From Methylocystis echinoides (lineage in GTDB: Bacteria > Pseudomonadota > Alphaproteobacteria > Rhizobiales > Beijerinckiaceae), in contig NZ_CP156084.1 in NCBI RefSeq assembly GCF_040687965.1, positions 2,108,501 through 2,172,500 on the forward strand: a DNA stretch of 64,000 nt, read 5' to 3'. The position numbers were made by a program, and so were the translations under genes. Positions 7,800 through 43,214 of the stretch are shown here, piece by piece. Below the pieces are notes generated by a model that worked only from the letters and a program-made list of their open reading frames with translations, made no database searches and had not been told where the DNA came from. Numbering within the stretch: position 1 is the first letter of the stretch; every line of letters begins with the position of its first letter.

Positions 7800-9386
7800 A
7801 TGGCGGCGGGTTCGGTCATGACTACGGTTTATCTTATTAATCCAATGGCCGATTTTCCCACTTACTTTGGCGCCGAGGCGCTCGCGGCTCGAGGCGGGCC
7901 GGGCGGCGTGATGATGGCGGATCTCGCCTGTTCGACTGTTGCGGCGTTGGCCCCTTCGGATTTCAAGGTCGAGATTTGCGACGAGAGCGCCTCCCGCGTC
8001 GACTTCGATCATCCGGCCGACTGGATCGCGATCACGGGCAAGGTCAGCCAGCGCCAGCGCATGACGGCGATCGCTGACGAATTCCGCAGGCGCGGCAAAC
8101 GCGTCATTATCGGCGGTCCTTATGCAAGTCTCTCCCCGGAACGGCTGCGCGGCCATTGTGACGTCATGGTGTGCGGAGAAGCAGAGGAGATCGCCAGCGC
8201 CCTGTTTTCAGATTTGCGGGCCGGAAAGCCTAAGGACGCTTATTTTGGCGACAAGCCGTCTTTAGCGCTGTCTCCCGCGCCCCGCTGGGACCTCTATCGC
8301 AACGACCGCGCCATGCTTGGCGCCGTGCAAACTTCCCGCGGATGCCCGTTCGAATGCGAATTCTGCGACGTTATCCAATATCTCGGGCGCAAGCAGCGGC
8401 ACAAACCCATCGCCAATGTCATCAGCGAGCTCGAGGCGCTCTGGGCCCTGGGCTATCGCACGACGTTTCTGGCCGATGATAATTTCACCGCCTATCGGGC
8501 GCATTGCAAGGAGCTGCTTGCGGCAATCGCAAAGTGGCGTCGCGGCCACCCGATGGAGTTCGTCACCCAGATCTCCATCGACGCGACGCGTGACGACGAA
8601 TTGATCGATCTGTGTGTGGCCGCAGGGTTGACGCAAGTGTTCATCGGCATCGAGACGCCGAACCTGGAAAGCCTTCGTGAAACGGGAAAAAGGCAGAACC
8701 TCAAGATCAGCCTCATTGAGGAGGTTCAAAAGCTCGTCGAGCGCGGGATCTCGGTCATGGGAGGAATGATCGTTGGTTTCGACCATGACGGGCCCGACAT
8801 CTTTCGACAGCAGTATGAATTCGCGATGGCGACGCCCATTCCCATATTCAGCCTTGGCGGTCTGATGGCTTCCGAGGCGACGCCCCTATACGATCGCATC
8901 TTGCGCGAGGGACGACTCCTCACGGGCGGCATCGAGACCCAGGCCGTGCCATGGAGCTCCAATATCAAGTGCAAAACCATGAGCATGGAAGAGCTGCATG
9001 AGGGAATGCAGAACCTCTGCAATGCGCTTTATTCGCCGCCGGCCTTAACCGCGCGCATGCTCCGTCTGATCGACAGCTTCGGGCGACGTCGCAATGGACC
9101 GGCGTCCGAGCCGACCGATTCGAACGCGCTGCGCGAGATCGAAAGGCAGTCAATGCAGGTCGCCATGCAAGTGCGTAATTATGGCGAGTCGGAGGGTCGG
9201 ATGTGGAACAAAATCTGGGGCGCAGCCGTACGTAAGCCCGAGACGATGACCATCGTTGGCCGCATCATGTTCCAATACGCCCAAGCGCGCTACATGTTCG
9301 AGAAAGGCAATTATTGGGAGCCCAGCCTCGCGACGGCCCCCGCGCCGCAAAAGGCGGAGCGCGTCGCCGCCATGTCGGATGCGTAG
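7800..9386 (+). CDS. B12-binding-domain radical SAM protein
   Basis: A 528-residue enzyme with an N-terminal Rossmann-like B12-binding domain (about 8-145; AITGKVSQ, IIGGPYAS, CGEAEE). A radical SAM core follows, with the 4Fe-4S motif C182-x3-C186-x2-C189 (SRGCPFECEFC). The C-terminal region (about 370-520) resembles the DUF4070 extension found in cobalamin-dependent methylases and in hopanoid enzymes such as HpnP and HpnJ. It is likely a methyltransferase or C-C bond-forming enzyme acting on a lipid or secondary metabolite; the substrate cannot be told. The ATG at 7800 has GGAG 8 bases upstream; a second ATG at 7818 is possible. It has no partner genes on its strand, and the convergent gene behind it is a VOC protein. 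Confidence 0.85.
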   Translation: MAAGSVMTTVYLINPMADFPTYFGAEALAARGGPGGVMMADLACSTVAALAPSDFKVEICDESASRVDFDHPADWIAITGKVSQRQRMTAIADEFRRRGKRVIIGGPYASLSPERLRGHCDVMVCGEAEEIASALFSDLRAGKPKDAYFGDKPSLALSPAPRWDLYRNDRAMLGAVQTSRGCPFECEFCDVIQYLGRKQRHKPIANVISELEALWALGYRTTFLADDNFTAYRAHCKELLAAIAKWRRGHPMEFVTQISIDATRDDELIDLCVAAGLTQVFIGIETPNLESLRETGKRQNLKISLIEEVQKLVERGISVMGGMIVGFDHDGPDIFRQQYEFAMATPIPIFSLGGLMASEATPLYDRILREGRLLTGGIETQAVPWSSNIKCKTMSMEELHEGMQNLCNALYSPPALTARMLRLIDSFGRRRNGPASEPTDSNALREIERQSMQVAMQVRNYGESEGRMWNKIWGAAVRKPETMTIVGRIMFQYAQARYMFEKGNYWEPSLATAPAPQKAERVAAMSDA

Positions 9387-9443
9387 GACTGTCGTTCTAG
9401 CGTTTTTCTCGACGAGAATTGCAAGACCGCTCGCGCTGGTCCG

Positions 9444-9815
9444 TCACTGTGGAACCGTCATGAGCTCCATGAGGTGGCTGTCTGGCGTCTCGAAATACAC
9501 TCCCCGGCCTCCGCCCCAGTCATTCAGCTTTCGGTCGCTTCGGCTCCAGGGCGCGCTGCCGAAGGCCAACCCCTTATCCTTGACTCGTCCGAGAATAGCA
9601 TCGAATTCAGCGTCGCTGACATGGAAAGCATAATGCTGAGCGTCGAATGACGCCGCGTCGGCGAACAAAAGCGTCAAAGTGTCATTCACCCGCACTGGCG
9701 CAAAGTGGTCGGCATCCGCTTCTACGAAGGCTAGACCAAAGACGTCAGCAAACCAGCGCGCCGCATCCTGCTTGTTGTGAGCAGAAACGATCGTGTGGTT
9801 GAGACGAATGGTCAT
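9444..9815 (-). CDS. VOC (glyoxalase/bleomycin resistance) family protein
   Basis: A 123-residue single-module vicinal-oxygen-chelate protein. It shows the typical beta-alpha-beta-beta-beta pattern: LNHTIVSAHN at the start, DVFGLAFVEAD, then YAFHVSD in the middle and GVYFETPDSHLMELMT at the end. Candidate metal ligands are His7, the central His of FHVSD and the Glu of LMELMT. Enzymes of this family isomerise, cleave or bind small electrophiles; the substrate is not predictable. It is convergent with the radical SAM gene. Confidence 0.85.
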   Translation of the reverse strand: MTIRLNHTIVSAHNKQDAARWFADVFGLAFVEADADHFAPVRVNDTLTLLFADAASFDAQHYAFHVSDAEFDAILGRVKDKGLAFGSAPWSRSDRKLNDWGGGRGVYFETPDSHLMELMTVPQ

Positions 9816-10241
9816 TGGCTAGATCCTCCTGTCAAACCCCGCAACCCGCCGGGTAAGCGCGCAGCGACACTTACGCCCATTGCCCACGAGGTCCATCAGA
9901 TTGGCGTAGCGGTAGAGATGGTCAAAATCCTCCAAAAAGCCGAATACGGCTCGACATTCAGCTCGGACCAGGAGCGGAGCTGACGTTCCAGCGGCAAGCC
10001 GTGCTCTGCGAGTGGATTAAAAGGCATGGGTCTCTCCGACGTTGCGCGGAGCAAACTTTTCTGGCGTCCGTCGGTTCGTACTTCGCCGCAAGGCGTCCAA
10101 TTAATTCGCGCAGCGCTTGCCGCTCAAGGGACGCCTATGAAGCGCCACGCGGGCGGGCGCGCGTGCGGCTCCCGCGCCCATAACTCAGCGTTGGCCCACG
10201 GCCTTCCCGAACGCCATCACGACATCTTGGCGGGCCAATAA
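9816..10241. other. Gene-poor intergenic region
   Basis: About 425 bases between two minus-strand genes. Short open frames exist on the plus strand, but they lack ribosome-binding sites and have shadow-frame composition. No repeat, tRNA-like fold or mobile-element end was recognised. Confidence 0.5.
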
Positions 10242-11453
10242 TTACTTTGTTTGGAAGCCGGGGGGAGCATTCTCCCATGGGTAGCCGTTCTTCGCTTTGT
10301 CGAATGCGTAGCGATAGAGAGCCGTCATATAAGCGCGATCAAAGTCCGCCGGATGCGGGGCGTTGAAATCCTCGCCGATATAGGCGATTCTGAAAGAGCT
10401 GCCGCCGCGCTTGGCGATCATGTACATTTTATACAAGTCACCGGCGCCGCTGTAACTCGTGAGAACAGAGACGGCCTTCTGCGCTACAGACAGCGTCTGG
10501 CGATCAACGTCGCTCCAATCCGCTCTCAGCTTCCCATTTCTGATGACGTAGGTCTCGACTTTTCTTCTAAAGCCCTCGGCTTCCCGCGCCTTCTCGGGAT
10601 TGTATGCGGAAGGGGAGATGAACGACTGACTGACGGCGCCGCCATCCACGTGAAGTTCCTGATAGCGCTTGCCGTTGACCTCGACGTCGAAGAGGACGGG
10701 CGGGAACGCGGCGGGGATCGCCGCCGATGCGAGGAGGATGTGTCTGATGAGCTCGAGGGCCTCCGGGCGCCCGCTCGCCGCTATGGCCCCGATATTCCAG
10801 AATACGGGCCGCCCCGCGTCGAGATCGGTGGTCTGGATCGCGAGCAACCGGCCCTTCTGATACTCGGCCGCGACTTTCTCCATCAGCGCTTCGGTGAAGT
10901 AATGTGAAATGGTTTGATAGAGCGGGGTCGTATCTGACAACGCGTCCTGCGCAACGGCGGCGACGGGCAAAAACCTCTCTTCGAAAACGCGCGACGCGTC
11001 CATTTGGGTGTAAACTTCAGTCAGTAGAGGATCATATTCCGGTCCCAGAAAGGCATAGATGGCGATGAGAGCGCCCGTGCTGACGCCCGTCACCAATTTG
11101 AAGGCCGGCCGGTCGCCATGCGCTGTCCACCCCACGAGCAGCCCTGCGCCAAACGCGCCATTATCTCCCCCGCCTGATAAAGCGAGCAGATGAGCGGTCG
11201 GCAGCACGCCGCCTCTCTTGACGCCCAGATGTCTGGCCTCGCGAAGGAGCGCCTGTTCCTGCACGCGCTCGATCGACCCCAGCTCATCGCCGAAAAAGCG
11301 GGCGTCCGGGATCCCGAGCACAGTCGCCGCCCGCCTCTCCCCGGGTGGGACGGCGGCCTGTCTGTCCAGCAAAGAGCAGGCCGCGAGCAGGACGGGCAGA
11401 AAGAGGATCAATCCGATCGAGCGTCGAAACGACTTGAAGTTGGCAAAAAGCAT
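10242..11453 (-). CDS. Patatin-like phospholipase lipoprotein
   Basis: A 403-residue lipid acyl hydrolase. The signal peptide ends in a lipobox (LLAAC, Cys26), so the protein is probably membrane-anchored. Patatin hallmarks are present: an oxyanion glycine loop SGGGDNGAFGAG (93-104), the nucleophile elbow GVSTG with Ser125, and a DGG motif (VDGGAVSQ) in the second half that supplies the catalytic Asp. The final part (DRAYMTALYRYAFDKA) is typical of the lipoprotein subgroup. It would hydrolyse phospholipid or neutral lipid acyl esters at the envelope. Apparently monocistronic. Confidence 0.9.
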   Translation of the reverse strand: MLFANFKSFRRSIGLILFLPVLLAACSLLDRQAAVPPGERRAATVLGIPDARFFGDELGSIERVQEQALLREARHLGVKRGGVLPTAHLLALSGGGDNGAFGAGLLVGWTAHGDRPAFKLVTGVSTGALIAIYAFLGPEYDPLLTEVYTQMDASRVFEERFLPVAAVAQDALSDTTPLYQTISHYFTEALMEKVAAEYQKGRLLAIQTTDLDAGRPVFWNIGAIAASGRPEALELIRHILLASAAIPAAFPPVLFDVEVNGKRYQELHVDGGAVSQSFISPSAYNPEKAREAEGFRRKVETYVIRNGKLRADWSDVDRQTLSVAQKAVSVLTSYSGAGDLYKMYMIAKRGGSSFRIAYIGEDFNAPHPADFDRAYMTALYRYAFDKAKNGYPWENAPPGFQTK

Positions 11454-11566
11454 CGGTGAAGAATTCGCGGGTTGGCGACGCCAGCATGCCCTTATCCGGT
11501 CGTTTCGACAAGGCCGAGGCGCCGCCTTCAGAGCCTCGACCTACGCTTTTTGAGGCGTGGCTTGGG

Positions 11567-12574
11567 CTAAGAAAGCTCCCGAGCGACCGGAATGTCGTCG
11601 CAACTGCGCAAGTCGCCGTTCAAGCGCTCGATCACGCGCTCGATCGCTTCCGTTTTGTCGGCATATCTTTCTTTTATTGTTTCGAAATTGCGCTTGTCGT
11701 TCGCGCTTCTCGCTTGAGCGCCGAACATCAGCGTTCCTTGCCCGCCTACGCCGATCTCAAAATCGGGGGCGTCATGTAACCCCACATGGTGGCCTGCAAG
11801 CCATGCTTTGAAGCATATGTCATGGTCGAGATGGACGCCCGGCTGGCCGGGCTTACTGAAGCTCTGATCGAAGCCTCCGAGAGATCGAAACACGTCTCGC
11901 CTGAAGAAAATCGGCCCGATCCCCACGCTATGGACAAACATGAAGCGCATGTTCAAATCTGGCTCAACGAATGGAATGGGCCGGACATTCCAATGCGCGG
12001 CGAGCGGAAGCGCTTGATGTCCGAAGAGCTTTGTCGCGGCGCTCGGATCGGGCGCGGAGAGATCCCACATGATTCCAATCCAGCTTCCCAGGATCGCGAG
12101 CTTGGGATAACGCTCGAAGAGCGCAAGCGCGTCGCTGACCCATTTACCGCTTGGATCTGGAAGATCGTCGTCTTGCAGCACGCAGACGATATCGCCTCGC
12201 GCATAATCGATGGCGCGATTATAGGACCGGATCTCGTGGATATCGTTTGATCTGATCACAAAATCGTTGGGACGGGTCAGCCGCCGCAGCCATTCTCTCT
12301 CCGATCCATCGATTGAGCCATCCTCGCAGATGATGATTTCTTGCGCCTGAGTCTGTCTGAGACGCGACGTAATCGGAACGATGTTCCCTCGGTGGTTGAA
12401 CGACAAGAGCACCAAGGACAAATTCGGAGAGTCGGTATATTTGAACGGCGACGCCGCCTTCAATTCCTTGCGATGCTTCACCCTCGCAGCCAGACACCTT
12501 TTGTACAGCCACGATGAATAAAGGTTGAGGCTGCTCAAGATTGGAAGCAGTAATCGCGCCAGAATATCGCCCAT
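11567..12574 (-). CDS. Family 2 glycosyltransferase (GT-A fold)
   Basis: A 335-residue glycosyltransferase. The frame is open upstream to 12817, but that part is Arg-rich and would overlap the divergent gene. The ATG at 12574 has GGAG and AGG nearby, and the protein then starts with a hydrophobic segment (MGDILARLLLPILSS). GT2 features are LSLVLLSFNHR, the donor-binding CEDGSIDGS and the metal-binding DxD-type LQDDDLPDP, then a GGFDQSFSKPG acceptor-side motif and an HLDHDICFKAWLAG helix. It would transfer a sugar from a nucleotide donor to a surface glycan or lipid. It is isolated and divergent from the TIR gene. Confidence 0.85.
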   Translation of the reverse strand: MGDILARLLLPILSSLNLYSSWLYKRCLAARVKHRKELKAASPFKYTDSPNLSLVLLSFNHRGNIVPITSRLRQTQAQEIIICEDGSIDGSEREWLRRLTRPNDFVIRSNDIHEIRSYNRAIDYARGDIVCVLQDDDLPDPSGKWVSDALALFERYPKLAILGSWIGIMWDLSAPDPSAATKLFGHQALPLAAHWNVRPIPFVEPDLNMRFMFVHSVGIGPIFFRRDVFRSLGGFDQSFSKPGQPGVHLDHDICFKAWLAGHHVGLHDAPDFEIGVGGQGTLMFGAQARSANDKRNFETIKERYADKTEAIERVIERLNGDLRSCDDIPVARELS

Positions 12575-12845: not shown

Positions 12846-15800
12846 ATGATGCTGCCCGTGTGCCTGTCGTATTCAGAGGATAACCGCCGGGAAGGAAACG
12901 CGGTCCGCGCCTGGCTCGAAGAAAGCGGATGGACCGGCGTCTACACAGAAACCGCCTGGACGCCTGATGATCAGGGCGGCGATCGCCGATCGGATGAGCG
13001 ACTCGTCCGCTGCGAAGCCGTCGTGTTCCTCGTGACGCGAAGTTGGCTGGCGGACGATCGCTGTCGGTTCGCCTATTGGCTCTCGAGCAGTCTTGGCAAG
13101 CGGATATTCTGCGCTCTGGTCGAGCCTCTCTCGCTCGATGACCTGCCCAAATGGGTCGCCAAGCGCGGGCAGATTTTCCCATTGGCTCCGAGCGACGCCG
13201 ACGATCGCGCGGTTCTTGGCGGCAAAACGGAGCACGGCGACGCCTTTGAGGTCGTCCTTTCGTCCAAGGGGCTCGACGCTTTCAAGGCCGCGCTCGGCGA
13301 GGCCCGGCTGACGGCGCACGTTTTCGCCTGGCCGCCTCAGGACGAACCCGATCGCGCGCCTTATCGCGGGCTCGAGCCTTTGGAGGCGGCGGACGCCGGC
13401 ATTTTCTTCGGCCGGGACGCCGAGCTGCTCGACGCGCTCGACAGGCTTCGCAGCCTGGCGCAGGCGGGGCCGGGGCGGTTTCTTGCGCTCATCGGCGAAG
13501 GGGGCGTCGGGAAAACCTCGTTTCTAAGTGCGGGCCTCTGGCCTCGGCTGGCTCGCGACGGTGAACATTTCTTCCCTCTTCCGGTCATCCGACCCGACGG
13601 AGGACCGCTGTTCGGGCCGAAGGGATTGGCTGCAGCGCTCTCAGAGGCGGCCCGTCACAGCGGGCGCGAGCTTTCCGAGACCCGCATCCGCGACGCAATT
13701 GCTGGCGGGCCGGAATCTTGTCGAGACTTGCTTGCGGATTTCTCGAGGCAGGAGGGTCCCCCCACGCTCGTCCTCGCTGTCGACGACGCGGAACAGCTGC
13801 TTCGCGACGATGAAGAGACCGGGCAATTTCTGACGTTATTGGCTGGCCTCGCCAGCGAAGATCGTCCTGCCGCAATCGTGATCCTCACGATTCGCCCCGG
13901 GGAGTTCGGCGCGCTTTGGCGCAGGGGGCCTTTCAGCCGCTTCCGGCCCCGTCTTTTTATGCTGCCGGACATGTCCAAAGACGCCTATAGAGCGGCGATC
14001 GAGGGCCCGTTGCAACGGCTTCCTTCGCCTGGGCGCTGGGAGATCGAGCCCTCTTTGGTGGAGACTCTCCTCGCCGACCTCGACAAGACCGGCGCCGCCG
14101 CCTTGCCGCTTCTCGCTTTCGCCTTACAGGCGCTCTACCGCCTTTGCTCGGACGCAAAGCTCGTCATGGCGGCGGATTATCAAAGATGCGGGCGGCTGCA
14201 GGGAGCAATCGACGCTGCGGCAGGTCGCGTCCTTGCGATAGCTGGCGCCGATCCCGACTTGCCGAGAGACCGCGACGCCCGCCTGTCCTTGTTGCGCAGG
14301 GGACTCGTTCCTTGGCTGGCGTGCAGCGTTCCGGGATCGTCGACCGCGAAGCGGCGCCGCGCGCGCGCCAGGGAAATCCCGCTCGACTCGATTCCCATGA
14401 TCGAGCTTCTCGTCGAAGAGCGGCTGGCGACGCGGGGCGTCGATGCGGTTTCGGGCGAAGCGACCTACGAACTTGCACATGATGTGTTGCTCGATCGCTG
14501 GACGCTTCTGAGGGACTGGATCGCCGCTGAACGCCGCCTCGACGCGACGCTGGAGACCCTGCAGCGCGCAGCGCGCGATTGGGACGCGCATGGGCGCGCC
14601 CATGACTGGGCGAAGCATGCCGGAAGTGAGCTCCAGGGCGCGGAAAGTCTCTACGCGCAACCGGAGTTCCTGTCGCGCCTGGAGGCCACGGACCGCGCCT
14701 ATCTGCTCGCCTGTCGAGAAAAGGAAAAATCTCTCCAGAAGTCCGATCGGCTGCGGATCCCGGAAGAGGAGCGGGCCGCCAAGACGAGCGCCTATGCCCA
14801 ACGCGACGCGCAAAGCGTTCGACGCTTGAAAATCTTTGCTTGGGCTGGCCTCGCAACGACGCTCGCTTCCGTCGCGGTCGCCGCCTGGCTCTGGCAATCA
14901 CTGGCCAAAAGTGAGCGGCAGGCAGCGGCCAGGCTCGAGGAATCGGAAGCGGCGCTTGCGGCTGCGGTCGGCTCGATCAATCGAAGCATGGACGGTCTTG
15001 CGCGAAAACTCGCCGGCCAGCCGGAAAGCCAGGCGTCGCTCGTCGTGGATGTTTTCAACCAGCTCAACTCCTTGCAAGAGAAGCTCGGGGCCTACCCGGC
15101 AAACGCCGTCGAGCTGCGCCGCAGTCAGTCGGTCGCGCTCAACCATATTTCGGAGGTGCGCCTCGCTAAGGGCGATATTGAAGGCGCGCGCGCCGCGGCG
15201 GGTCGCTCGGTCGCTCTAATGCAAGCGCTGTCCGAGTCTCGTCCTGCGGATGACGGATGGCGGCGCGATCTGTCGGTCAGTTACGAGAAGCTCGGCGACG
15301 CCCAGGCCGCGTCGGGAGATTTGGCGGGGGCCCGGAAATCCTATGCGGACGATCTTGCGATCGCGAAAAAGCTCCTGTCGGCTGCGCCCGAGAATCCGCA
15401 AAGACGCTGGGACATGTCGGTAAGCTACGAAAAACTGGGCGACGTTCAGCTCGCGCAAGGGGACGTCGACGGCGCGCTCGAGTCCTATGGAAACGACCGG
15501 GCGATCCGGGAGGCGCTGACGGCCGCAAATCCCGAGAATGAAGCCTGGCGGCGCGGCCTTGCCGTCAGCTATGAAAAGCTTGGCGTGACGCTCGCGAAAC
15601 GGCGCGAAGTTCCCCAGGCGATCGCCGCTTTCGAGGGGGCGCTGGAAATCTACCGGACGCTTGCGCACGCCAACCCCGGCGACGCGCAAACCGCCGCCTA
15701 TGCGGTCGTCCCGCATTGGTGGCTCGCCGACTTGGACAAGGCCAAGACGCGCGAACATCTCGCCGCAGCCCTCGCGATCCTGCAACCTCTGGCGGATTCC

Positions 15801-15890
15801 GGGCATTTGAGCGAGGATAAGCGCAAGTGGATGACCCAGATCAAGGCGACGATGGCGGCCCTCGAGCCGCCCTTGCCGGCAAGACGCTAA
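12846..15890 (+). CDS. TIR - nSTAND NTPase - TM - TPR protein (NLR-like)
   Basis: A 1014-residue multidomain signalling protein. Domains in order: a TIR-like domain (about 3-110; VCLSYSEDNR, then CEAVVFLVTRSWLADDRCRF); an nSTAND1-type NTPase (about 170-560) opened by YRGLEPLEAADAGIFFGR, with Walker A GEGGVGKTS at 217-225 and a Walker-B-like LVLAVDDAEQLL; a winged-helix-like part ending ELAHDVLLDRW; one transmembrane helix (about 662-685); and C-terminal TPR repeats (SVSYEKLGDAQAASGDLAGA and relatives). STAND proteins with TIR effectors often act in antiphage defence. In this TIR the usual catalytic Glu, three residues after Cys73, is Ala76, so NADase activity is doubtful. The start was chosen at ATG 12846/12849, where the TIR begins. 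Confidence 0.85.
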   Translation: MMLPVCLSYSEDNRREGNAVRAWLEESGWTGVYTETAWTPDDQGGDRRSDERLVRCEAVVFLVTRSWLADDRCRFAYWLSSSLGKRIFCALVEPLSLDDLPKWVAKRGQIFPLAPSDADDRAVLGGKTEHGDAFEVVLSSKGLDAFKAALGEARLTAHVFAWPPQDEPDRAPYRGLEPLEAADAGIFFGRDAELLDALDRLRSLAQAGPGRFLALIGEGGVGKTSFLSAGLWPRLARDGEHFFPLPVIRPDGGPLFGPKGLAAALSEAARHSGRELSETRIRDAIAGGPESCRDLLADFSRQEGPPTLVLAVDDAEQLLRDDEETGQFLTLLAGLASEDRPAAIVILTIRPGEFGALWRRGPFSRFRPRLFMLPDMSKDAYRAAIEGPLQRLPSPGRWEIEPSLVETLLADLDKTGAAALPLLAFALQALYRLCSDAKLVMAADYQRCGRLQGAIDAAAGRVLAIAGADPDLPRDRDARLSLLRRGLVPWLACSVPGSSTAKRRRARAREIPLDSIPMIELLVEERLATRGVDAVSGEATYELAHDVLLDRWTLLRDWIAAERRLDATLETLQRAARDWDAHGRAHDWAKHAGSELQGAESLYAQPEFLSRLEATDRAYLLACREKEKSLQKSDRLRIPEEERAAKTSAYAQRDAQSVRRLKIFAWAGLATTLASVAVAAWLWQSLAKSERQAAARLEESEAALAAAVGSINRSMDGLARKLAGQPESQASLVVDVFNQLNSLQEKLGAYPANAVELRRSQSVALNHISEVRLAKGDIEGARAAAGRSVALMQALSESRPADDGWRRDLSVSYEKLGDAQAASGDLAGARKSYADDLAIAKKLLSAAPENPQRRWDMSVSYEKLGDVQLAQGDVDGALESYGNDRAIREALTAANPENEAWRRGLAVSYEKLGVTLAKRREVPQAIAAFEGALEIYRTLAHANPGDAQTAAYAVVPHWWLADLDKAKTREHLAAALAILQPLADSGHLSEDKRKWMTQIKATMAALEPPLPARR

Positions 15891-17469: not shown

Positions 17470-19587
17470 TTACGCTGCTTTCGCGGTGAGCGCGCTGAGC
17501 CCGCCGTTTTCGATCCTGTAGACCCGGTCCACCATCGGCAGCAGTTTTTCACTGTGCGTGACGAATAATTTGGCCGCCGGAAAGGCCATCAGCGACTTCA
17601 CCAGCCGTTCTTCGGACGCCGCGTCGAGATTCGCGGTGACCTCGTCGAGAAGGAGCAGGCGCGGCCGACGGCAGAGCGCGCGTGCGAGCAGCAGACGACG
17701 CCGTTGTCCGGTTGAGAGGATCGCGCTTTCATTCGTCACGCGCGTCGCAAGTCCCTGCGGCAACCGGAGCACGTCGTCGAGAAGCCCGACGGTTTCGAGC
17801 GCCTCCTCGATCGTCGACATGGCGATCGAGGGAGAAAACATGCTCAGATTATCCAGAACGCTTCCGGCGATGACGCCGTCATCCGCGAAAACGGCTCCAA
17901 TGTTCATCCGATACGGATAGAGGCCGAATTCTTCCAGCGGCCGATCGTCCACCAGAAACTGGCCTTTTTCGGCGTGGTGGAGGCTGGCGACGATTTTGAG
18001 AAGCGAAGATTTGCCGCATCCTGAAGGGCCGACAATGGCGAGCGACTCGCCCCTTGCGATGTCGATGTCGAAATCGACGTTGGAAAGCAACGGCTTCGTA
18101 TTCTGCCCAAACGCCACCGACACGCCGCGCAGGCTGACCTTGCGTCGGATCGGGCGGGCGATGGTCGCGCCGGTCGTATGAGTTTCGGTCTTTTCGCTGA
18201 GAATGTCGTCGAGCCGATTGAAATGAACCCGCATGATCGACAGGTTCAAAAGGCTGAGGATCATGGCGTTCATGTTGAAAAAGAACGAATTGCGCAAGGT
18301 GAAGAAGGCATAGAGGACGCCGAGCGAAATCGTGCTCTTCATCGTGTCGCTGACGCCCATATACAACGTGACGACGGTCCCAATCATGAAAATCAGATGC
18401 AACAGGAGATCTGTGTCGATCGACAGTTTTTTCGAGGCGTAGCTCTTATTTGCAAAGCGCGCGAAATTCTCGAACCATTTCAGCCCGAAGAACTCGGCCG
18501 TGTTGTGCGCCTTGAGCGAGTCGATGCGCCGAAGCCCGTCGAGCAGGAGCGCCTGTTCCTCACTGCGCGCCTCGAGCGTTTCGAGGGTGCGCATGGCGAT
18601 TTTCGGATAGGTGACGAGGCGCAAGACAATCGCCGCGGCCAGCGTCAGGATGGAGACGAAGGCCATGGACGGCGAATAATAAAACATGAGCAGAACGACC
18701 ATGAAGGACATGACGCCGTCCGCGATCGTGTCGATAAATCCGGAGACGATGAAGGTCTTGATGTGGTCGATCGATGACAGCCTCGTAACGAAATCGCCAG
18801 TGTGGCGCGCCTCGAAATAGCGGAGCGGCAGCCGGAAGGCGTGCCCGATGATATTGCGCGTGAAGTGGATTTCAAACATCGTCGCGGCGCGTGCCGTCAC
18901 GACGTCCCGCAGCCATCTGCTCAGCGCCTCGAACGACATGAACAGCCCGAGGCCCAACATCACGATGGTGAGCAGGTCGAGATCGAATTGAGGAATGACG
19001 ACGTCGAGCGCGATCTCCAGCAGGATGGGCGTCGCCAGAGAGAATAGACTCGCGGCAAAGGAAAGGACCGTAATGATCGCGATGACGTGTTCCAGGCCGC
19101 GACAGGAGCGGAAGACTTCCCAGAAGACGGAATTGTCCTTGGCCTTGACGCTGCTGAAATCGACTCTCGGCTCGAATTCGAGCGCCACGCCGCTGAAGTG
19201 ACGCTCGACGTCGTCGCGGGTGTAAATCCTCAGACCAAAGGCGGGATCGTGGATTTTGAAGACGCCGCCGCGCGAGACCTCTTCGAGCACGACGAAGTGG
19301 TCGCCGTTCCAATGAAGCAGCGCCGGGCATCTGAGATTCTTCAGCTCGCCGACATTCGATACGGCGAAGCCCTGCGCGTCGAGATCGAGCCGTCCCGCCA
19401 GTTCGACGATATCGGCAAGACTCAGCCCGCGCATGGAAACCGACACGAGAGAGCGCAAGTAAGAGACGCTGATATCGTGCTTGTGGTAATTGGCGATCAT
19501 CGCCACGCAGGCGAGACCACACTCCATCGCTTCATTTTGAAGAATCGTCTTGACGCGTTTCCGCATCTGCAGAATTTGCAGGCTCAT
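17470..19587 (-). CDS. Peptidase C39-containing ABC exporter (bacteriocin type)
   Basis: A 705-residue exporter that should cleave double-glycine leader peptides and export the core. The N-terminal C39 cysteine protease (1-125) has all expected residues: Gln17, Cys23 (AMECGLACVAM), His97 (GDHFVVLEE) and Asp114 (IHDPAFG). A six-helix transmembrane domain follows (about 160-440). The ABC domain comes last, with Walker A GPSGCGKSSL, signature LSTGQRRRLL and Walker B LLLLDEVTANLD. The start ATG overlaps the true end of the HlyD gene (ATGA), showing translational coupling. The likely substrates are the two short GG-leader peptides encoded upstream on the same strand at 21914-22595. The operon ends at the hairpin at 17420-17449. 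Confidence 0.93.
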   Translation of the reverse strand: MSLQILQMRKRVKTILQNEAMECGLACVAMIANYHKHDISVSYLRSLVSVSMRGLSLADIVELAGRLDLDAQGFAVSNVGELKNLRCPALLHWNGDHFVVLEEVSRGGVFKIHDPAFGLRIYTRDDVERHFSGVALEFEPRVDFSSVKAKDNSVFWEVFRSCRGLEHVIAIITVLSFAASLFSLATPILLEIALDVVIPQFDLDLLTIVMLGLGLFMSFEALSRWLRDVVTARAATMFEIHFTRNIIGHAFRLPLRYFEARHTGDFVTRLSSIDHIKTFIVSGFIDTIADGVMSFMVVLLMFYYSPSMAFVSILTLAAAIVLRLVTYPKIAMRTLETLEARSEEQALLLDGLRRIDSLKAHNTAEFFGLKWFENFARFANKSYASKKLSIDTDLLLHLIFMIGTVVTLYMGVSDTMKSTISLGVLYAFFTLRNSFFFNMNAMILSLLNLSIMRVHFNRLDDILSEKTETHTTGATIARPIRRKVSLRGVSVAFGQNTKPLLSNVDFDIDIARGESLAIVGPSGCGKSSLLKIVASLHHAEKGQFLVDDRPLEEFGLYPYRMNIGAVFADDGVIAGSVLDNLSMFSPSIAMSTIEEALETVGLLDDVLRLPQGLATRVTNESAILSTGQRRRLLLARALCRRPRLLLLDEVTANLDAASEERLVKSLMAFPAAKLFVTHSEKLLPMVDRVYRIENGGLSALTAKAA

Positions 19588-20910
19588 CCACGCCGCCGCA
19601 TCGCCCGGATCGGATCGAGGACCCAGTCGATCAGCTGCCGGTTTTCGACGACGATTTCAGCAGTCAGCGTGGCGCCCACGGTCAACGCACGTTTCTGGCC
19701 ATAGGCGATGACCGAAGGCTCGTCTGGCTGCACTTCGATGCGATATTCGGATTGAAGGGGCAGGGGGCCGCGGATCGGCGCCTTCAGCCGAGCGCAACGA
19801 CGTCGGGATGTTGAACGCGGCCGACGAAATATATTTGATCGTGCCGTGATACACTCCGAATGTCTTGAAAGGAAAAGCGTCGTATTTGAGCACGACCCGC
19901 TGGCCGATCCTGGCAAGACCGACGGCGCGCGCCGGCGCGTCGAGGATGACGATCAGATCGGAGTCGGGGGCGCCGATCCCGGCGATGAATTGTCCCGTTT
20001 GCACGGAGTCGCCGACTTTGTTCATGAGCGCCAGAACGGTTCCGTCCGACTGCGCTTGGACGACGAGCGCGCTATCGGCTCTCACCGAGGCAAGCTTGCT
20101 GTCGATCGACGAAATCGCGTTTTCGGCGGCGGTCTTCTGACTGAGCTTGTCGGCGATAAGGCTGGCGAGCTGTCGCTCCTTCTCCATCTTCAGCCGTTTA
20201 TATTCGATGCGCTTCAGATGGATTTCAGAGAGCTGCCGTTCGTAATCGAAGCTGACGCGTTCATGGCTTTCGAGATTGTCGCGCGTCGCATAGCCGGTCT
20301 CGACGTAGCGGCGCAATCGTTGAACGACCGACTGGGCGTTGCCGAGCGCGCGCTGGATCGAGGCTTCCTGTCGATCGAGCGCTTCCAGCAAGGCTTTCTC
20401 CTCGCGCAACTGGTCGTGCTTTTCTATCTCGGCCTGCGTGAGAAAGGCCTCGAGCCTCGCGACCTCGGCGACATGGCGCAGCCGGGTCTGTTCGAGATTG
20501 CGCATCTCGGCCGCGACCGTGGTCTCGCCGCCCGACGTCGCCTCGCGCAGCCGCAGCGCGTAAATCGGCTGGCCGATCGTCACCCTGTCGCCTTGCTTGA
20601 CGAATATCTCGCGAATGACGCCGGCCTGCGGCGCATCGAGGCGTGAAAAGCCGCCGCTGGTTGCGACGTAGCCGCGCACGGTTTCGAATTTCGAAAAGCG
20701 TCCCAACCAGAGGCCGGCAAGAACCGAGAGAACCAGCGCCGCAAACAGGCCGGCGAGGATTTTGGAAGTCAGGTTCTGGCGAACGTCGATCGTCTGCGCA
20801 ACGCGCGAAAAGCTCTGCCGATCGTTGATCGGATCCGCGCTCACCGCCGGCGCGCGGACGCTCTCCGTTGGCGACCGGCCCCCGACTGTGGCGAATTCGT
20901 CGATGCTCAC
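19584..20910 (-). CDS. HlyD/MFP secretion adaptor, interrupted by a frameshift
   Basis: Periplasmic adaptor partner of the C39 ABC exporter. It starts at GTG 20910, which overlaps the upstream stop (GTGA). It has one transmembrane helix (about 54-73), a barrel-sandwich half (FSRLDAPQAGVIREIFVKQGD), a long coiled coil (about 135-250) and the second half (QSDGTVLALMNKVGDSVQTG). Read straight through, the frame ends in an unrelated Arg/Pro-rich tail at 19657. Skipping one base near 19788-19789 restores the family C-terminus (LKAPIRGPLPLQSEYRIEVQ ... LIDWVLDPIRAMRRRG), ending at 19584 exactly on the ABC start. Restored length is 441 residues. This is either a sequencing error or a real disrupting mutation. 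Confidence 0.85.
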
Positions 20911-21794
20911 GCGGCGGCTCCGGGAGGGACATATTCAGAAAAGCGACTCCACATGATCCATTGGTCCGGAGCGGCGAGAACGGAGCGTTCGATGTGGCGG
21001 CGCAGGATGGCGCAGACACGGGCCTTCTCCCGTTCGCCGACATCGACGCATTCGAACGGTTGCCCCAGCGACAGCGTGTCGCCGTCGAGCGAGGAATGGA
21101 TGGCGAGCGGCGCGACCGTCGCCTCGATCATCCGCGCGAAGGAGACGACCCCGAGCGCAAGCTGCGCGGGCGCGCCGAAAAGTTCAGTGTCATAGGCGCC
21201 CCCGAAGGTGCCGGGCAGGTCGATAAAAAACACGATGATCGCGCCTTCTCGGCCGTAACGGGCGGCGTCGATGTAGTTATTTTTGTGCGCGATATTCAAA
21301 AAACGAATGTCCACGCCGATTTCGCAGATGCGCTTGATGACTCGCGTTTCGATCTCGCTGTCGTCGCTCGCGCGCAGAATGAGCATGCGCCGGCCCGGGA
21401 AGTAGTCGCGCATGATGCGTGCAAAGGCCAATGCGAAAAACCCCGTATGCACGGGAGCGAGCACGACCGACTTTTGCGATTGAGACAGTTGCGCAAGAAG
21501 GTTGGGGTCGACGATATCGACGCAGCTCGCGTCTTGCGAGACCTGCTCCGTGCTGCGCAAGAGCATCGCAAGCCATTCGAGACTGAGCAGATCGTCGTGA
21601 TAGATCGACTCCCTGTCGAGTCTTTGCGCTTCGGCGTGCGACAGCCTCAGCACATCGCGGAAATAGCGGTTGTAGCCAAATCCGACGGGCCGCTTCGCCA
21701 ATTGCTGGTATCGCCACGCCAGCCGCAACGCGCGCCGTCGCGCCCACAATGGCAGGCGTGCGACCGATTCGATTACGGGCGAGTCGACTCTCAT
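20907..21794 (-). CDS. LpxL/HtrB-like acyltransferase-fold protein
   Basis: A 295-residue protein resembling lauroyl/myristoyl acyltransferases of the lipid A type. The core is VVLAPVHTGFFALAFARI, then IIVFFIDLPGTFGG...ELFGAPAQLALGVVSFARMIEATVAPLAIH, matching the order of the LpxL catalytic and substrate-binding blocks. The His116 position would open the HX4[DE] motif, but the acid is replaced by Ala121, so activity or chemistry may differ. Its stop overlaps the HlyD start (GTGA), placing it in the export operon. The context (GG-leader peptides rich in Lys and Cys, an ACP and a ketosynthase upstream) suggests it could acylate the exported peptide. That is inference; a lipid role is the alternative. 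Confidence 0.6.
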   Translation of the reverse strand: MRVDSPVIESVARLPLWARRRALRLAWRYQQLAKRPVGFGYNRYFRDVLRLSHAEAQRLDRESIYHDDLLSLEWLAMLLRSTEQVSQDASCVDIVDPNLLAQLSQSQKSVVLAPVHTGFFALAFARIMRDYFPGRRMLILRASDDSEIETRVIKRICEIGVDIRFLNIAHKNNYIDAARYGREGAIIVFFIDLPGTFGGAYDTELFGAPAQLALGVVSFARMIEATVAPLAIHSSLDGDTLSLGQPFECVDVGEREKARVCAILRRHIERSVLAAPDQWIMWSRFSEYVPPGAAA

Positions 21795-21846
21795 CCTCAG
21801 AGAATTAAGTCGGCCATCGTTTGAGTCTGGTTAACGGCCAAGCTCA

Positions 21847-21883
21847 AGAAAAAGCCCGCCCGAGTCCAGCGGCTCGGGCGGGC
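21847..21883 (-). terminator. Rho-independent terminator after GG-peptide 1
   Basis: On the minus strand: an 11-base perfect stem GCCCGCCCGAG / CTCGGGCGGGC with an 8-base loop, followed by TTTTTCTT. It lies between the peptide gene (stop 21914) and the acyltransferase (start 21794). Most transcripts of the precursor should therefore end before the export genes. Confidence 0.85.
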
Positions 21884-21913
21884 GGGATGGAACGCAAGAG
21901 CATTCAATCCGAA

Positions 21914-22021
21914 TTAGCACTTCTTCTTCTTGTGCTTGGGCTGATCGCAGCAGCCGCCGCCATTGCCGCCGCCGCCACCGCCAACGATCTGCTGCAGTTC
22001 CTTGGTGTCGAGCTTCTTCAT
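21914..22021 (-). CDS. Double-glycine leader precursor peptide 1 (35 aa)
   Basis: A short gene found by reading the minus strand directly. The leader MKKLDTKELQQIVGG is a textbook GG (C39-cleaved) leader, with Leu and Ile at the expected spacing before Gly-Gly. After cleavage the core would be 20 residues: GGGGNGGGCCDQPKHKKKKC, with Gly-rich start, adjacent cysteines, a Lys/His tail and a C-terminal Cys. A strong SD (AAGGGAG, 22029-22035) lies 7 bases before the ATG. A terminator follows. The downstream acyltransferase-HlyD-C39 exporter is the natural processing and export partner. The activity is unknown: bacteriocin, metal-binding or signalling peptide, possibly modified. Confidence 0.85.
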   Translation of the reverse strand: MKKLDTKELQQIVGGGGGGNGGGCCDQPKHKKKKC

Positions 22022-22042
22022 CTGGCAACTCCCTTCGAATTC

Positions 22043-22063
22043 GACGGCCTGTAACGGGCCGTC
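22043..22063 (-). promoter_or_regulatory. 5'-UTR stem-loop before peptide 1
   Basis: Minus-strand hairpin GACGGCC - 7-base loop - GGCCGTC, placed just upstream of the SD. Peptide 2 has a stem-loop of different sequence at the equivalent place, so the pairing rather than the bases is kept. Confidence 0.55.
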
Positions 22064-22154
22064 TGGGGAAGGCTTAATCCAACCCTTCAATAGTATGGCA
22101 GAACTACTTCAGCGCTGCAATAAAAAATTAGTAAAAAGCTCTAGAAAATTGCAT

Positions 22155-22174
22155 TGTTTCAATGCGTTACAAGC
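22155..22174 (-). promoter_or_regulatory. Conserved upstream box, copy 1
   Basis: The plus-strand block TGTTTCAATGCGTTACAAGC matches TGTTTCGATGTATTACAGC upstream of peptide 2, in an otherwise AT-rich diverged stretch. In this copy it overlaps a perfect inverted repeat GCATTG-TTT-CAATGC (22151-22165). It lies about 130 bases before the peptide start: a candidate operator or promoter element. Confidence 0.45.
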
Positions 22175-22424
22175 ATATGTGCCTTTTTGATACAGTTGGC
22201 GCCAGTCTTCGTGTCAATTACACATGAGAATAAACTCAGTGTTAAGGTTAACGCGCAGCGCAAGACTTGTTCGGCGCGTTTCTGGCGCCGCCGCAACTGC
22301 GTCATGAAGGGATTTCAGGAGGGCGCTTTCGCGCGCGCCGGGTTCGGCGCGTCGCCACCGGCGGGTCAGCGGAGCCGCGCCGGACGACGCCCGGCTCCCA
22401 TTGAGCCGGGTCAACGATCAGACC

Positions 22425-22451
22425 CCGCCCGAGTCCGTGCAACTCGGGCGG
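22425..22451 (-). terminator. Hairpin after GG-peptide 2
   Basis: A 10-base stem CCGCCCGAGT / ACTCGGGCGG with a 7-base loop, 34 bases after the peptide 2 stop on the minus strand. It is the counterpart of the terminator at 21847-21883 but has no T-run, so readthrough into the peptide 1 unit is likely. Confidence 0.55.
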
Positions 22452-22484
22452 AAAGGAGCGCGCGCGGGTGCGCCTGGTCAAAAA

Positions 22485-22595
22485 TCAGCATCTCTTCTTT
22501 TTGTGCTTGGGCTGATTGCAGCCATCCGAGCAACCGTTGCCGCCGCCGCAGCCGCCGGTGATCTGCTTGAGGTCTTTGGTGTCGAGCTTCTTCAT
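22485..22595 (-). CDS. Double-glycine leader precursor peptide 2 (36 aa)
   Basis: Paralogue of peptide 1. The leader MKKLDTKDLKQITGG ends in Gly-Gly. The core starts CGGGNGCSDGCN and ends QPKHKKKRC, giving four cysteines (Cys16, 22, 26, 36). The Gly/Cys middle differs from peptide 1, while the QPKHKKK[KR]C tail and the leader are conserved, as expected of precursor families with variable cores. The SD AAAGGGAG precedes the ATG as in peptide 1. The C39 exporter on the same strand is the probable processing enzyme. No modification enzyme of a known RiPP class (LanM, YcaO, radical SAM) lies next to it. Confidence 0.85.
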   Translation of the reverse strand: MKKLDTKDLKQITGGCGGGNGCSDGCNQPKHKKKRC

Positions 22596-22616
22596 TTGAT
22601 AACTCCCTTTGAGCTT

Positions 22617-22634
22617 GGCGGCGTATCCGCCGCC
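22617..22634 (-). promoter_or_regulatory. 5'-UTR stem-loop before peptide 2
   Basis: Stem GGCGGCG / CGCCGCC with a 4-base loop, at the same place relative to the SD as the hairpin at 22043-22063 but with different paired bases. It is preceded in both copies by the identical block GGATTAAGCC-TTCCCC. Confidence 0.55.
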
Positions 22635-22724
22635 GGGGAAGGCTTAATCCAACCCTTCAGCAGTATTGCAAAACTACTTAGACTTTGCAATAAAAAAATC
22701 CATAAATACCTGAAAAATATTCGC

Positions 22725-22743
22725 TGTTTCGATGTATTACAGC
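22725..22743 (-). promoter_or_regulatory. Conserved upstream box, copy 2
   Basis: Counterpart of the box at 22155-22174 (shared consensus TGTTTCRATGYRTTACA), 570 bases away, in the same position relative to peptide 2. The palindrome seen in copy 1 is not perfect here. Confidence 0.45.
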
Positions 22744-23051
22744 TAGTATTTCAGTGCGATACATTTACGATCCTTGTTAATTCTATTCTTGTGTCAAAAT
22801 AAGCGTGCAATTCTCTTTACGGACCTGGTACAGCTTTTCCTTAACGCGCCGCCTTCCTGGCGCCGCCGCATCGGCAGTCGTGAGGGGAGTGTTCGGGACG
22901 GTCGCGCTGCGTTCACGCGTGAAAATCGAGCGCGTCACAGGCGCAAGGCCCGCTTTGGGCGCGCAATCGCGTCTGTTGGCGGCTGCTCGATGGAGGTCGC
23001 AGAAATCCGGCGCCCGCCCGCCGGCCGGCGCGTTCAGCGGAGGCGCGCGCT

Positions 23052-24248
23052 TTAGATTTTCTGGAAGGCCAATGCGGCGTTCAGACCGCCGAAGGCGAAA
23101 GAGTTCGACAAGGCGACATCGATCTCCATGGCGCGCGGCTGATTTGGGATCACGTCGATCCCGCAGGCGGGATCCGGCTCGTCGAAATTGGCGGTCGGGG
23201 GCGCAACGCTTCGCTGCATCGCCAATATCGTGGCGACCGCTTCGAAAGCCCCGGCGGCGCCGAGCGGATGGCCGGTAACGCCTTTTGTGGAGGAGACGGG
23301 CGGCGTCCGCTCCGCGCCGAAGAGCAGTTTCAGCGCTTGCGTCTCCGTTGCGTCGTTCGAGCGGGTGCCGGTGCCGTGCGCGTTGACGTAATCGACGCGG
23401 CCCGGTTCGATCCGGGCGTCGGCCAAAGCGTCGCGCATCGCGCGCGCCATGCCGTCACGCGTCGGCGCCACAATGTCTCCGGCGTCTGAGTTGCAGGCGA
23501 AGCCCGCGACCGCGACATCCGGCCTGAGTCCTCGAGCGCGCGCATGCGCTTCGGATTCGAGAACGAGCGCGGCGGCGCCTTCCGAAATCATCAAGCCGTC
23601 GCGTGTGCGCGAGAACGGCCGACACTTCACGAAGCTCATGACTTTCAAAGCGTGCCACGCGAGCACCGTTCCTTGAGACAAAGGCGCTTCGGTTCCGACG
23701 GCGACGGCGACGTCGGCGAGGCCGCCGCGTATCAGCTGGGCCGCGAATCCGATGGCGTGCGCCGAGGAGGCGCAGGCGCTGGAGACGGTGAACGCCGGCC
23801 CCTTCAGTCCGAAGGCGAGCGCCACCCAACTTGCCGTCGAGCTGATCATCGAGCGCACGATCGTCAGGGGATGCGCGCGCGGCACGCCCTGGCGGAAAAG
23901 GCGCTCATACTGCGCCTCGATACTATTCATCCCCCCGGCGGCTGTGCCGGTGACGACGGCGATGCGCTCCGCAGCGCAGCCTTCCGTCAGAAGACCGGCG
24001 GACGCCAGCGCTTTCTCCGCCGCGCTCAACGCGAAAAGCGCCGTGCGGTCGCAGGCGGCGAGCGAGGAAGGCGAAAGCCTGTCGAAGGCGACGCTTTCCC
24101 CGATTGCGCCGACGCGGAGCGCGAACCCCGGGGCGGCGTCTGTGACCGAGAAAATGTCCTTCCCGGTCAGCAGCGCTTGCCAATAGTCGTCGAGAGTCGC
24201 GCCGCAGGGAGAAACGACGCCCATGCCCGTGACGACGACGCGCGTCAT
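23052..24248 (-). CDS. Beta-ketoacyl-ACP synthase (FabF/NodE-like)
   Basis: A 398-residue condensing enzyme that extends acyl chains on ACP. The full KAS triad is visible: Cys159 (VSSACASSAH), His291 (NAHGTGTRSND) and His327 (GVTGHPLGAAG), with the conserved Lys322. The C-terminal NSFAFGGLNAALAF is typical of KAS II. The start overlaps the stop of the ACP gene (ATGA), so the pair works together. Such a dedicated ACP+KAS pair outside the main fab cluster resembles NodF/NodE, which build special fatty acids. It is on the same strand as, and upstream of, the GG-peptide and acyltransferase genes, about 450 bases before peptide 2. It could supply a special acyl chain to that system (inference). 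Confidence 0.9.
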   Translation of the reverse strand: MTRVVVTGMGVVSPCGATLDDYWQALLTGKDIFSVTDAAPGFALRVGAIGESVAFDRLSPSSLAACDRTALFALSAAEKALASAGLLTEGCAAERIAVVTGTAAGGMNSIEAQYERLFRQGVPRAHPLTIVRSMISSTASWVALAFGLKGPAFTVSSACASSAHAIGFAAQLIRGGLADVAVAVGTEAPLSQGTVLAWHALKVMSFVKCRPFSRTRDGLMISEGAAALVLESEAHARARGLRPDVAVAGFACNSDAGDIVAPTRDGMARAMRDALADARIEPGRVDYVNAHGTGTRSNDATETQALKLLFGAERTPPVSSTKGVTGHPLGAAGAFEAVATILAMQRSVAPPTANFDEPDPACGIDVIPNQPRAMEIDVALSNSFAFGGLNAALAFQKI

Positions 24249-24523
24249 TTGAGAGCGCCGGCGCCGTTGTCGATCTGGCCGACGATCAGGCTGCCGAGTT
24301 CCTGAATCGTCGTGTCCGACGTCAGACTGGTGTTGGCGTTGAGGCTGACGACAATCCCATATTTATCCTCAACCTGAAACACGAGTTCGACAACGTCGAA
24401 CGAGTCGAGCCCGGCATCCTGAACCTTCGTCGCGCCGTTCCAGCTCTCTCCGGCGTTCTGCGTATGTTTGCGGATGATCTCGATGAGATCGGATATCACG
24501 GTTTGCAGATCGGGTGTGTTCAT
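24245..24523 (-). CDS. Acyl carrier protein, dedicated
   Basis: A 92-residue acyl carrier protein. The 4'-phosphopantetheine site is Ser41 in GLDSFDVVEL, flanked by the usual four-helix pattern (LQTVISDLIEIIRKH at the start, LVFQVEDKYGIVV after the Ser). The length equals that of NodF-type carriers rather than the roughly 78-residue housekeeping AcpP. It overlaps the downstream ketosynthase by 4 bases. It would carry the chain extended by that enzyme. Confidence 0.9.
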   Translation of the reverse strand: MNTPDLQTVISDLIEIIRKHTQNAGESWNGATKVQDAGLDSFDVVELVFQVEDKYGIVVSLNANTSLTSDTTIQELGSLIVGQIDNGAGALK

Positions 24524-41958: not shown

Positions 41959-42289
41959 TCGGACAAAGGCCGCCCGCGCCCGGTTGGCGCGGGCGGACGG
42001 TTCCGGCGGGATTTTCGCTTACACCACTGACACGAGAAGGCTTTTGATCTGCCGTGACTTTCGGCGGGGGCTGGTTTTTCGTGTCGCGGCTCGGGGGGTT
42101 CGCCCCCGGCTCGGGAAGGGGAAGGTTTCGCGGCGCACGTTTCGCGTTGCGCAAAAGAAAACCGAACGCGGGCGTTTCGAGAGGGCGCATCGGGTTTGGA
42201 CGCGGGTCCGGGGCTTTCGTTCCGTCCTGCGGCAAAAAGAAAGCTCGGAGCCCACGATGGCTTTCCGAGAAACACCAAGGAGAAGAGTG
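41959..42289 (+). other. pmoC-pmoA spacer
   Basis: 331 bases without a gene. It begins with the hairpin listed at 41970-41996. The rest is G-rich and open in several frames, but has no SD-preceded start until pmoA; the frame joined to pmoA upstream is a shadow. Unlike the genes, it shows no codon bias. Confidence 0.6.
41970..41996 (+). promoter_or_regulatory. Strong hairpin just after pmoC
   Basis: An 11-base perfect stem CCGCCCGCGCC / GGCGCGGGCGG with a 5-base loop, 12 bases after the pmoC stop and with no T-run. It more likely protects or processes the pmoC 3' end, or attenuates, than terminates, because pmoA and pmoB follow. Confidence 0.75.
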
Positions 42290-43048: not shown

Positions 43049-43057
43049 TGCGGGCTG

Positions 43058-43085
43058 GGCCGCGGTTTTGAAACGGGTCGCGGCC
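43058..43085 (+). promoter_or_regulatory. Hairpin in the pmoA-pmoB spacer
   Basis: Stem GGCCGCG / CGCGGCC with a 14-base loop, starting 10 bases after the pmoA stop. It mirrors the position of the pmoC-pmoA hairpin but is weaker. Confidence 0.5.
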
Positions 43086-43214
43086 TGTCTCGAAGAGGAA
43101 AAGAACGCAAGTCCGCATGCGGCCGGGTCGACGATTTGGCTTCACGGCTTGCGAGGAAAAAAGTCGGCTGGCGCGCGAGGCGCCGGCCGGAAGAGGAACC
43201 TGGGAGGTTTGTTC

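Follow-up and report, generated by a model that had tools for sequence, protein, structure and literature searches.

The question raised here is why the gene of a peptide exporter and those of its candidate cargo should lie in one locus with the genes of a fatty-acyl module. The locus belongs to Methylocystis echinoides (genome of 4.35 Mb) and was analyzed within a stretch of 64 kb, hereafter the window (contig NZ_CP156084.1, positions 2,108,501 to 2,172,500). In the order of transcription on the minus strand, it encodes an acyl carrier protein (ACP), a beta-ketoacyl-ACP synthase (KAS) and, after a gap of 456 bases, two precursor peptides with Gly-Gly (GG) leaders (peptide 2, then peptide 1), followed by a terminator-like hairpin, an acyltransferase (AT), an HlyD-family adaptor and an ATP-binding cassette exporter with a C39 peptidase domain (C39-ABC). 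All the parts claimed by the original prediction, made from the sequence alone, were recovered on this single strand, the ACP-KAS pair included. We consider that the most likely job of these genes, with a probability of roughly 60%, is to acylate and export small ribosomal peptides.

The locus represents a rare, conserved and real gene system. Matches to the AT system were found in at least 3/149 sampled genomes of the family, at least 4/397 of the order, at least 3/398 of the phylum and at least 1/385 of the class, counts that are lower bounds, include the window genome and come from overlapping samples. A scan of GTDB contigs with the AT gave 6 loci, two of which duplicate those of genomes G083 and G130, and a search of plasmid proteins gave one further locus, in Rhizobium SSA_523; no AT relative was found in the viral_contigs set. 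A distant match in genome G001 (20% identity; E 3.4e-17 with query A3; family and class samples) was set aside, since visual inspection of the called genes around it revealed no C39 exporter. The nine distinct AT loci are those of the window, Methylobacterium Leaf112, M. haplocladii, genome G352 (same order as the window genome, different family), Rhizobium NFR03, Rhizobium C4, R. lemnae, a Sphingomonadales metagenome-assembled genome (MAG) and Rhizobium SSA_523. C39-ABC, HlyD, AT, KAS and ACP genes are present in all nine, always with ACP and KAS adjacent; the ACP was detected by profile at 9/9 loci and by plain BLAST with the window ACP at 7/9. At least one GG-type peptide accompanies each locus, for 12 precursors overall. 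The SSA_523 locus, found through the AT alone and used in no model, carries every other part. The gap of about 450 bases between the ACP-KAS pair and the peptides had been raised as a caveat by the original prediction, and is answered by the loci in which the pair adjoins the AT-HlyD-C39 genes. In Rhizobium C4 these genes run head-to-tail (ACP 8436-8723, KAS 8723-9910, AT 9914-10846, HlyD 10833-12170, C39 12167-14305), the peptide being about 5 kb off, near TolC. In the MAG, AT, HlyD, C39, ACP and KAS are contiguous, with a GG precursor immediately upstream.

As controls, C39 exporters of the family were considered: 41 matches were present in 34/148 genomes, 38 of them outside AT loci, and the best 20 of these 38 were taken with up to ~10 kb per side (some shorter at contig ends, one of 5.4 kb). 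At E 1e-4 the AT, KAS and ACP profiles matched none of the 20 control loci (0/20) against 8/8 AT loci. Exporter identity to the window C39-ABC is 37-62% at AT loci against 25-33% at control loci. A GG-leader open reading frame (ORF) was observed at 2/20 control loci, as is to be expected of C39 exporters, and the system can therefore not be recognised from a GG peptide by itself. The suspected link between peptide, exporter, AT and ACP-KAS pair is strongly supported by these comparisons. Absence of the peptides from relatives that keep the exporter, which had been named as evidence to the contrary, was not seen, since every AT locus has a peptide; within the genus, the five other genomes sampled have neither exporter nor AT.

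Both window precursors score above the cut-off (15.7) of TIGR01847, the NCBIfam model of GG leaders, with 22.0 bits for peptide 1 and 19.5 bits for peptide 2. With Pfam ComC (cut-off 20.4), peptide 1 passes (21.1 bits) and peptide 2 fails (18.4 bits). A strict leader pattern, composed once the peptides were already known, picks only these two ORFs across the 64 kb; in 40 dinucleotide shuffles it gave 10 matches in total (mean 0.25). No third close copy was found in the window genome, where the next match has E 0.746. The stretches upstream of the two genes are similar, as if the pair had arisen by duplication, promoter included. The peptides of the relatives were called from leader resemblance and position, with search patterns relaxed stepwise: the first pattern gave the Leaf112 peptides and one of G352, a later, wrongly set one that of the MAG, a corrected one that of C4, and a filter for a C-terminal Cys that of NFR03; for M. 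haplocladii and the second G352 peptide the sequence itself was inspected, and for R. lemnae the ORF list. The leaders are of the 15-residue GG type, and in most loci the cargo is 20-30 residues long. Cys is the sole acyl-accepting side chain common to the 12 cores: among 11 precursors it occurs in 11, Lys in 10, Ser in 10 and Thr in 7, the core of the twelfth (SSA_523) also has Cys, and window peptide 1 has neither Ser, Thr nor Tyr. The last Cys is among the final two residues in 11/12 cores (the exception is R. lemnae) and directly follows Lys or Arg in 8 of those 11, counts to which NFR03 came through the C-terminal-Cys filter and to which Leaf112 contributes two identical cores. The Leaf112 locus (L008 10562-10858, minus strand) encodes two precursors with differing leaders and one and the same 23-residue core, and would offer a simple test system.

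The AT was characterized by structure modelling. The best of five AlphaFold2 models (seven sequences) had a predicted local distance difference test (pLDDT) score of 87.3 and the worst 66.7. Foldseek matched the AT model to PatA and LpxM (best E ~2e-11, probability 1.00, template-modelling score by query length 0.62-0.65) at an identity of 15-16% to the solved chains. The assignment of the fold rests on Foldseek, because a search of solved-structure sequences with query A3 gave only matches of E >1 to an unrelated protein. With PF03279 (Lip_A_acyltrans, cut-off 22.3) the window AT stays below the cut-off (17.0 bits), and the four orthologs scanned are all above it (31-42 bits). His116 and Asp192 are invariant in the seven aligned AT sequences, 76 residues apart, a spacing also found in the SSA_523 AT (74 for the corresponding pair of PatA), and in canonical LpxL sequences (rows L034-L036, to which the comparison was limited, L033 being excluded) they fall opposite the His and an Asp. 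The PatA study (PMC4792965) describes a His126-Glu200 charge relay, and its authors suggest that the block-3 acid is also used by HtrB and MsbB. From the alignment, His116 and Asp192 thus appear to form a PatA-like catalytic pair.

The active residues of ACP and KAS are intact. The phosphopantetheine Ser (DS) of the ACP is invariant at the 8 loci aligned, as are the Cys and both His of the KAS in 7; the G352 KAS, split over two ORFs, was counted as present and excluded from KAS alignments and tree. Compared with its counterparts at 7 other loci, the window KAS shows 43-59% identity, against at most 44% for its own paralogs. As predicted, Gln17, Cys23, His97 and Asp114 are intact in the window C39-ABC, which also has a Walker A (GPSGCGKS) and a signature motif (LSTGQ); the MAG exporter has Asn at the C39 Asp position (8 loci aligned). 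The window genome carries one C39 domain. TolC genes were found near 7/9 AT loci within the stretches examined, and none was matched within the window.

Searched against plasmids, the KAS matched 101 records, of which 73 come from Rhizobium. One of the 101 records was examined: in this nod cluster, ACP, KAS and MaoC genes lie beside NodA, B, C and I. In such clusters the ACP, KAS and MaoC go by the names NodF, NodE and NodN, and the exporter is NodIJ. MaoC genes lie near 3/9 AT loci and their products are 43-46% identical to the nod-cluster MaoC; the window has none, and the window genome only a 32% match far from the locus. Of the system's ACPs, that of SSA_523 comes closest to the nod-cluster ACP (41% over 58 residues); the window ACP has only 21% identity to it over 53. 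The window KAS is 43.4% identical to NodE and likewise 43.4% identical to one of its own paralogs. Identification of the KAS as a NodE was rejected: the tree, which contained long-branch sequences, gave no resolved placement with NodE, so the resemblance is treated as an analogy only. A related KAS/ACP pair was also observed on a Xanthomonas sacchari plasmid (L090 9920-11440), beside a GNAT, an arginase-family protein and a class III aminotransferase; the plasmid has HlyD and TolC genes too. It looks like another private acyl module with a different product.

We propose the following sequence of events. From their families and co-occurrence, KAS and ACP, with MaoC where present, would assemble or modify an acyl chain carried by the dedicated ACP. 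The AT would then move this chain, in the cytosol, from acyl-ACP onto the core of the GG precursor through His116 and Asp192; here the fold comes from the model, the residues from the alignment, and the peptide is the presumed acceptor. Cleavage by C39 peptidases after Gly-Gly and export through ABC-HlyD pumps and TolC are standard for these families. In the last step the C39 domain would cut after Gly-Gly and the ABC-HlyD pair, with a TolC-type channel, would export the product.

Several points weigh against this proposal. The loci were found through the AT, whose presence in them is circular, leaving KAS, ACP, exporter and peptides as the informative parts; the profiles applied to the controls derive from the positive loci and their sensitivity for ACP is limited, although a FabF-type KAS should still show. 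TIGR01847, even at E 0.1, matches none of the six relatives' peptides scanned (0/6). The cores are weakly conserved and that of the MAG is long (88 aa) and free of Lys, so that a single shared chemistry is an assumption; both the acylation of the precursor and its site are putative. The KAS of the system do not form a clean clade: those from Xanthomonas sacchari (51%) and Streptomyces (48%) match the window KAS no less closely than do certain members of the system. KAS and ACP could also feed some other acceptor. The HlyD gene is present where the original prediction placed it, but not as an intact frame: a break occurs near 19765, in a stretch of C/G runs close to the C-terminus, and the last ~58 residues are in another frame (residues 70-417 of the Leaf112 HlyD match frame -1, residues 417-475 frame -2). 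In the other eight AT loci HlyD is a single ORF. Export in this strain may thus be impaired, or the assembly may be in error. Finally, as the original prediction had recognised, the AT lacks the acid of the HX4[DE] motif, its position being occupied by Ala or Pro in each of the seven aligned sequences.

That last point invites the explanation that the AT has no catalytic activity and instead supports the exporter as a scaffold, by binding the leader or at the membrane, and the title of the PDB entry for LpxM E127A does term that residue catalytic. In PatA (PMC4792965), however, the D131A mutant (the HX4D acid) retains 37% activity, whereas H126A and E200A are inactive. Because PatA relies on another acid, Glu200, whose apparent counterpart Asp192 is invariant here together with the His, the objection drawn from the motif is weak; a dedicated ACP and KAS would moreover have no point beside a dead enzyme. 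We regard a scaffold as quite improbable. Still less credible is an ordinary exporter of bacteriocins or signal peptides with fatty-acid genes close by chance. The distance of 456 bases between the window ACP-KAS pair and the closest peptide gene would agree with it, but KAS and ACP occur at 9/9 AT loci against 0/20 controls, they form contiguous operons with the exporter in two lineages, and no locus was seen with AT and C39 but without KAS and ACP.

A more serious alternative, though one we hold to be unlikely, is that the peptides are exported unmodified and that AT, ACP and KAS modify a lipid, either to remodel the membrane as self-protection against the peptide or to make a distinct lipid that is exported through the same pump. 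PatA and LpxM, the nearest solved relatives of the AT, acylate lipids; many GG peptides are secreted unmodified; and a class III aminotransferase near 5/9 AT loci could hint at a small amino-lipid. A lipid role is also conceivable in this strain given that no PF03279 protein was found elsewhere in the window genome at E 0.001. Against this, strong PF03279 matches distinct from the AT (LpxL, E 1e-35 to 1e-38) occur in Leaf112, M. haplocladii and G352, and in the five same-genus genomes sampled neither the AT nor, at E 0.1, any PF03279 protein was found. A role on lipids only would also fail to explain why a C39 peptide exporter always accompanies the AT. The AT was accordingly rejected as a lipid A enzyme: the five same-genus genomes cannot use it for lipid A, since they lack it, and three AT-bearing genomes keep a separate LpxL. 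Acylation of lipid A by the AT is unlikely; action on another lipid substrate is possible. As a separate observation, no PF03279 lipid A secondary acyltransferase was found in the window genome or in these five genomes.

Acylation and export of the peptides being the preferred reading, the acylated residue can be considered. Because Cys alone is found in all cores, a Cys thioester would be the only common side-chain option if there is one chemistry; N-terminal acylation would have to come after cleavage, because cleavage is coupled to export. In its most specific form the proposal is that the Cys near the C-terminus of short GG peptides becomes S-acylated, ahead of export by C39, through an LpxL-superfamily enzyme served by its own Nod-like ACP/KAS(/MaoC) module; such lipidated peptides of ribosomal origin would form a new class. 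This we advance tentatively, as a doubtful idea in its full detail. The acylation site is thus a lead rather than a result, and the core Cys could instead serve to form disulfides or to bind metals. At the level of titles and abstracts, among the matches listed and with most subscription papers outside reach, no such system was found described. If the proposal is true, ribosomal peptides would have a new lipidation enzyme fold, and the combination of AT, C39 and ACP/KAS would be a genomic handle for finding more such systems.

The features of the locus are collected in Table 1. The gene caller had placed the AT start later than the one adopted. Terminator-like hairpins are not clearly more numerous in the window than in shuffles (7 against a mean of 4.9, standard deviation 2.4). 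The presence of pmoCAB-type genes (PF04896, PF02461 and PF04744) in the window identifies the genome as that of a methanotroph. Three other genes were observed. A patatin-like phospholipase gene (10242-11453, minus strand) lies ~6 kb past the exporter end of the locus. A large protein (12846-15890, plus strand) combines a strong nSTAND1 NTPase match (1.5e-59), a sub-threshold TIR_2 and a TPR-like end; it is a STAND-type sensor, possibly with a role in defence, and PADLOC gave no match to it. A 1470-aa protein (58119-62531, plus strand) has the ALTTAQ repeat (PF20080) matched over 50 stretches.

Table 1. Positions of the features in the window, those of the locus in the order of transcription
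Feature	Position	Strand	Description	Evidence
ACP	24245-24523	-	acyl carrier protein, 92 aa	PF00550 23.2 bits (cut-off 20.8)
KAS	23052-24248	-	beta-ketoacyl-ACP synthase, 398 aa, overlapping ACP	PF00109/PF02801
Peptide 2	22485-22595	-	GG-leader precursor, 36 aa, MKKLDTKDLKQITGG / CGGGNGCSDGCNQPKHKKKRC	TIGR01847, leader pattern
Peptide 1	21914-22021	-	GG-leader precursor, 35 aa, MKKLDTKELQQIVGG / GGGGNGGGCCDQPKHKKKKC	TIGR01847, Pfam ComC
Hairpin	21854-21883	-	terminator-like, in the peptide 1/AT interval, possible attenuator	11-pair stem and T run
AT	20907-21794	-	LpxL/PatA-fold acyltransferase, His116 and Asp192	AlphaFold2 model, Foldseek
HlyD	19584-20910 (19657-20910; C-terminus within 19584-19916)	-	HlyD-family adaptor, two frames	
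C39-ABC	17470-19587	-	C39 peptidase-ABC exporter, 705 aa	PF03412, PF00664, PF00005
pmoC, pmoA, pmoB-type genes	41257-44474	+	particulate methane monooxygenase	

The system can be compared with several known ones. It shares C39-ABC and HlyD with NHLM/NHLP bacteriocin export (TIGR03796/TIGR03794), from which it differs by its short GG leaders and by an exporter scoring 404.1 bits against a TIGR03796 cut-off of 853.3. In the HlyC-HlyB-HlyD-TolC system an RTX polypeptide undergoes acyl-ACP-dependent acylation and is then exported by ABC-HlyD-TolC. The system proposed here would likewise acylate a secreted polypeptide ahead of such export; it differs by a cargo of mostly 20-30 residues, a catalytic C39 domain, a GG leader and its own ACP and KAS, and the fold of HlyC is distinct from that of LpxL/PatA. 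With PatA and LpxL/LpxM (PF03279) the AT shares the fold, the His/Asp pair and a QW-type C-terminal motif, but it lacks the HX4[DE] acid and is tied to a peptide exporter. Known lipidated RiPPs (ribosomally synthesized and post-translationally modified peptides) are described in two sources (PMC13060382, PMC12636315) as being of GNAT and lipoprotein-pathway types, and selidamide-type lipidation is ascribed in the former to GNAT enzymes, mostly with lanthipeptide synthetases (PMC13060382). The GNAT-lipidated RiPPs meant here (selidamides, kamptornamide, phaeornamide, nostolysamides, lipolanthines, goadvionins and lipoavitides) resemble the window system in having a leader-bearing ribosomal precursor, a dedicated fatty-acyl transfer and often an ABC transporter gene; unlike them, it has an LpxL/PatA-fold AT, 15-residue GG leaders and a dedicated ACP/KAS pair, and neither a GNAT nor a lanthipeptide synthetase was found among the nine locus ORFs scanned. 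Acylation and export of Nod factors (NodF/NodE/NodN, NodA, NodIJ) also involve adjacent ACP and KAS genes, an own acyltransferase and an own exporter, together with a MaoC, which in the present system occurs near 3/9 loci. The acceptor there is a chitooligosaccharide, and the SSA_523 AT showed no meaningful similarity to NodA. By analogy, the module of the window may function like the Nod acyl module; if so, the Nod-factor strategy of a private ACP and ketosynthase, a special chain and a secreted molecule would be suggested for peptides too.

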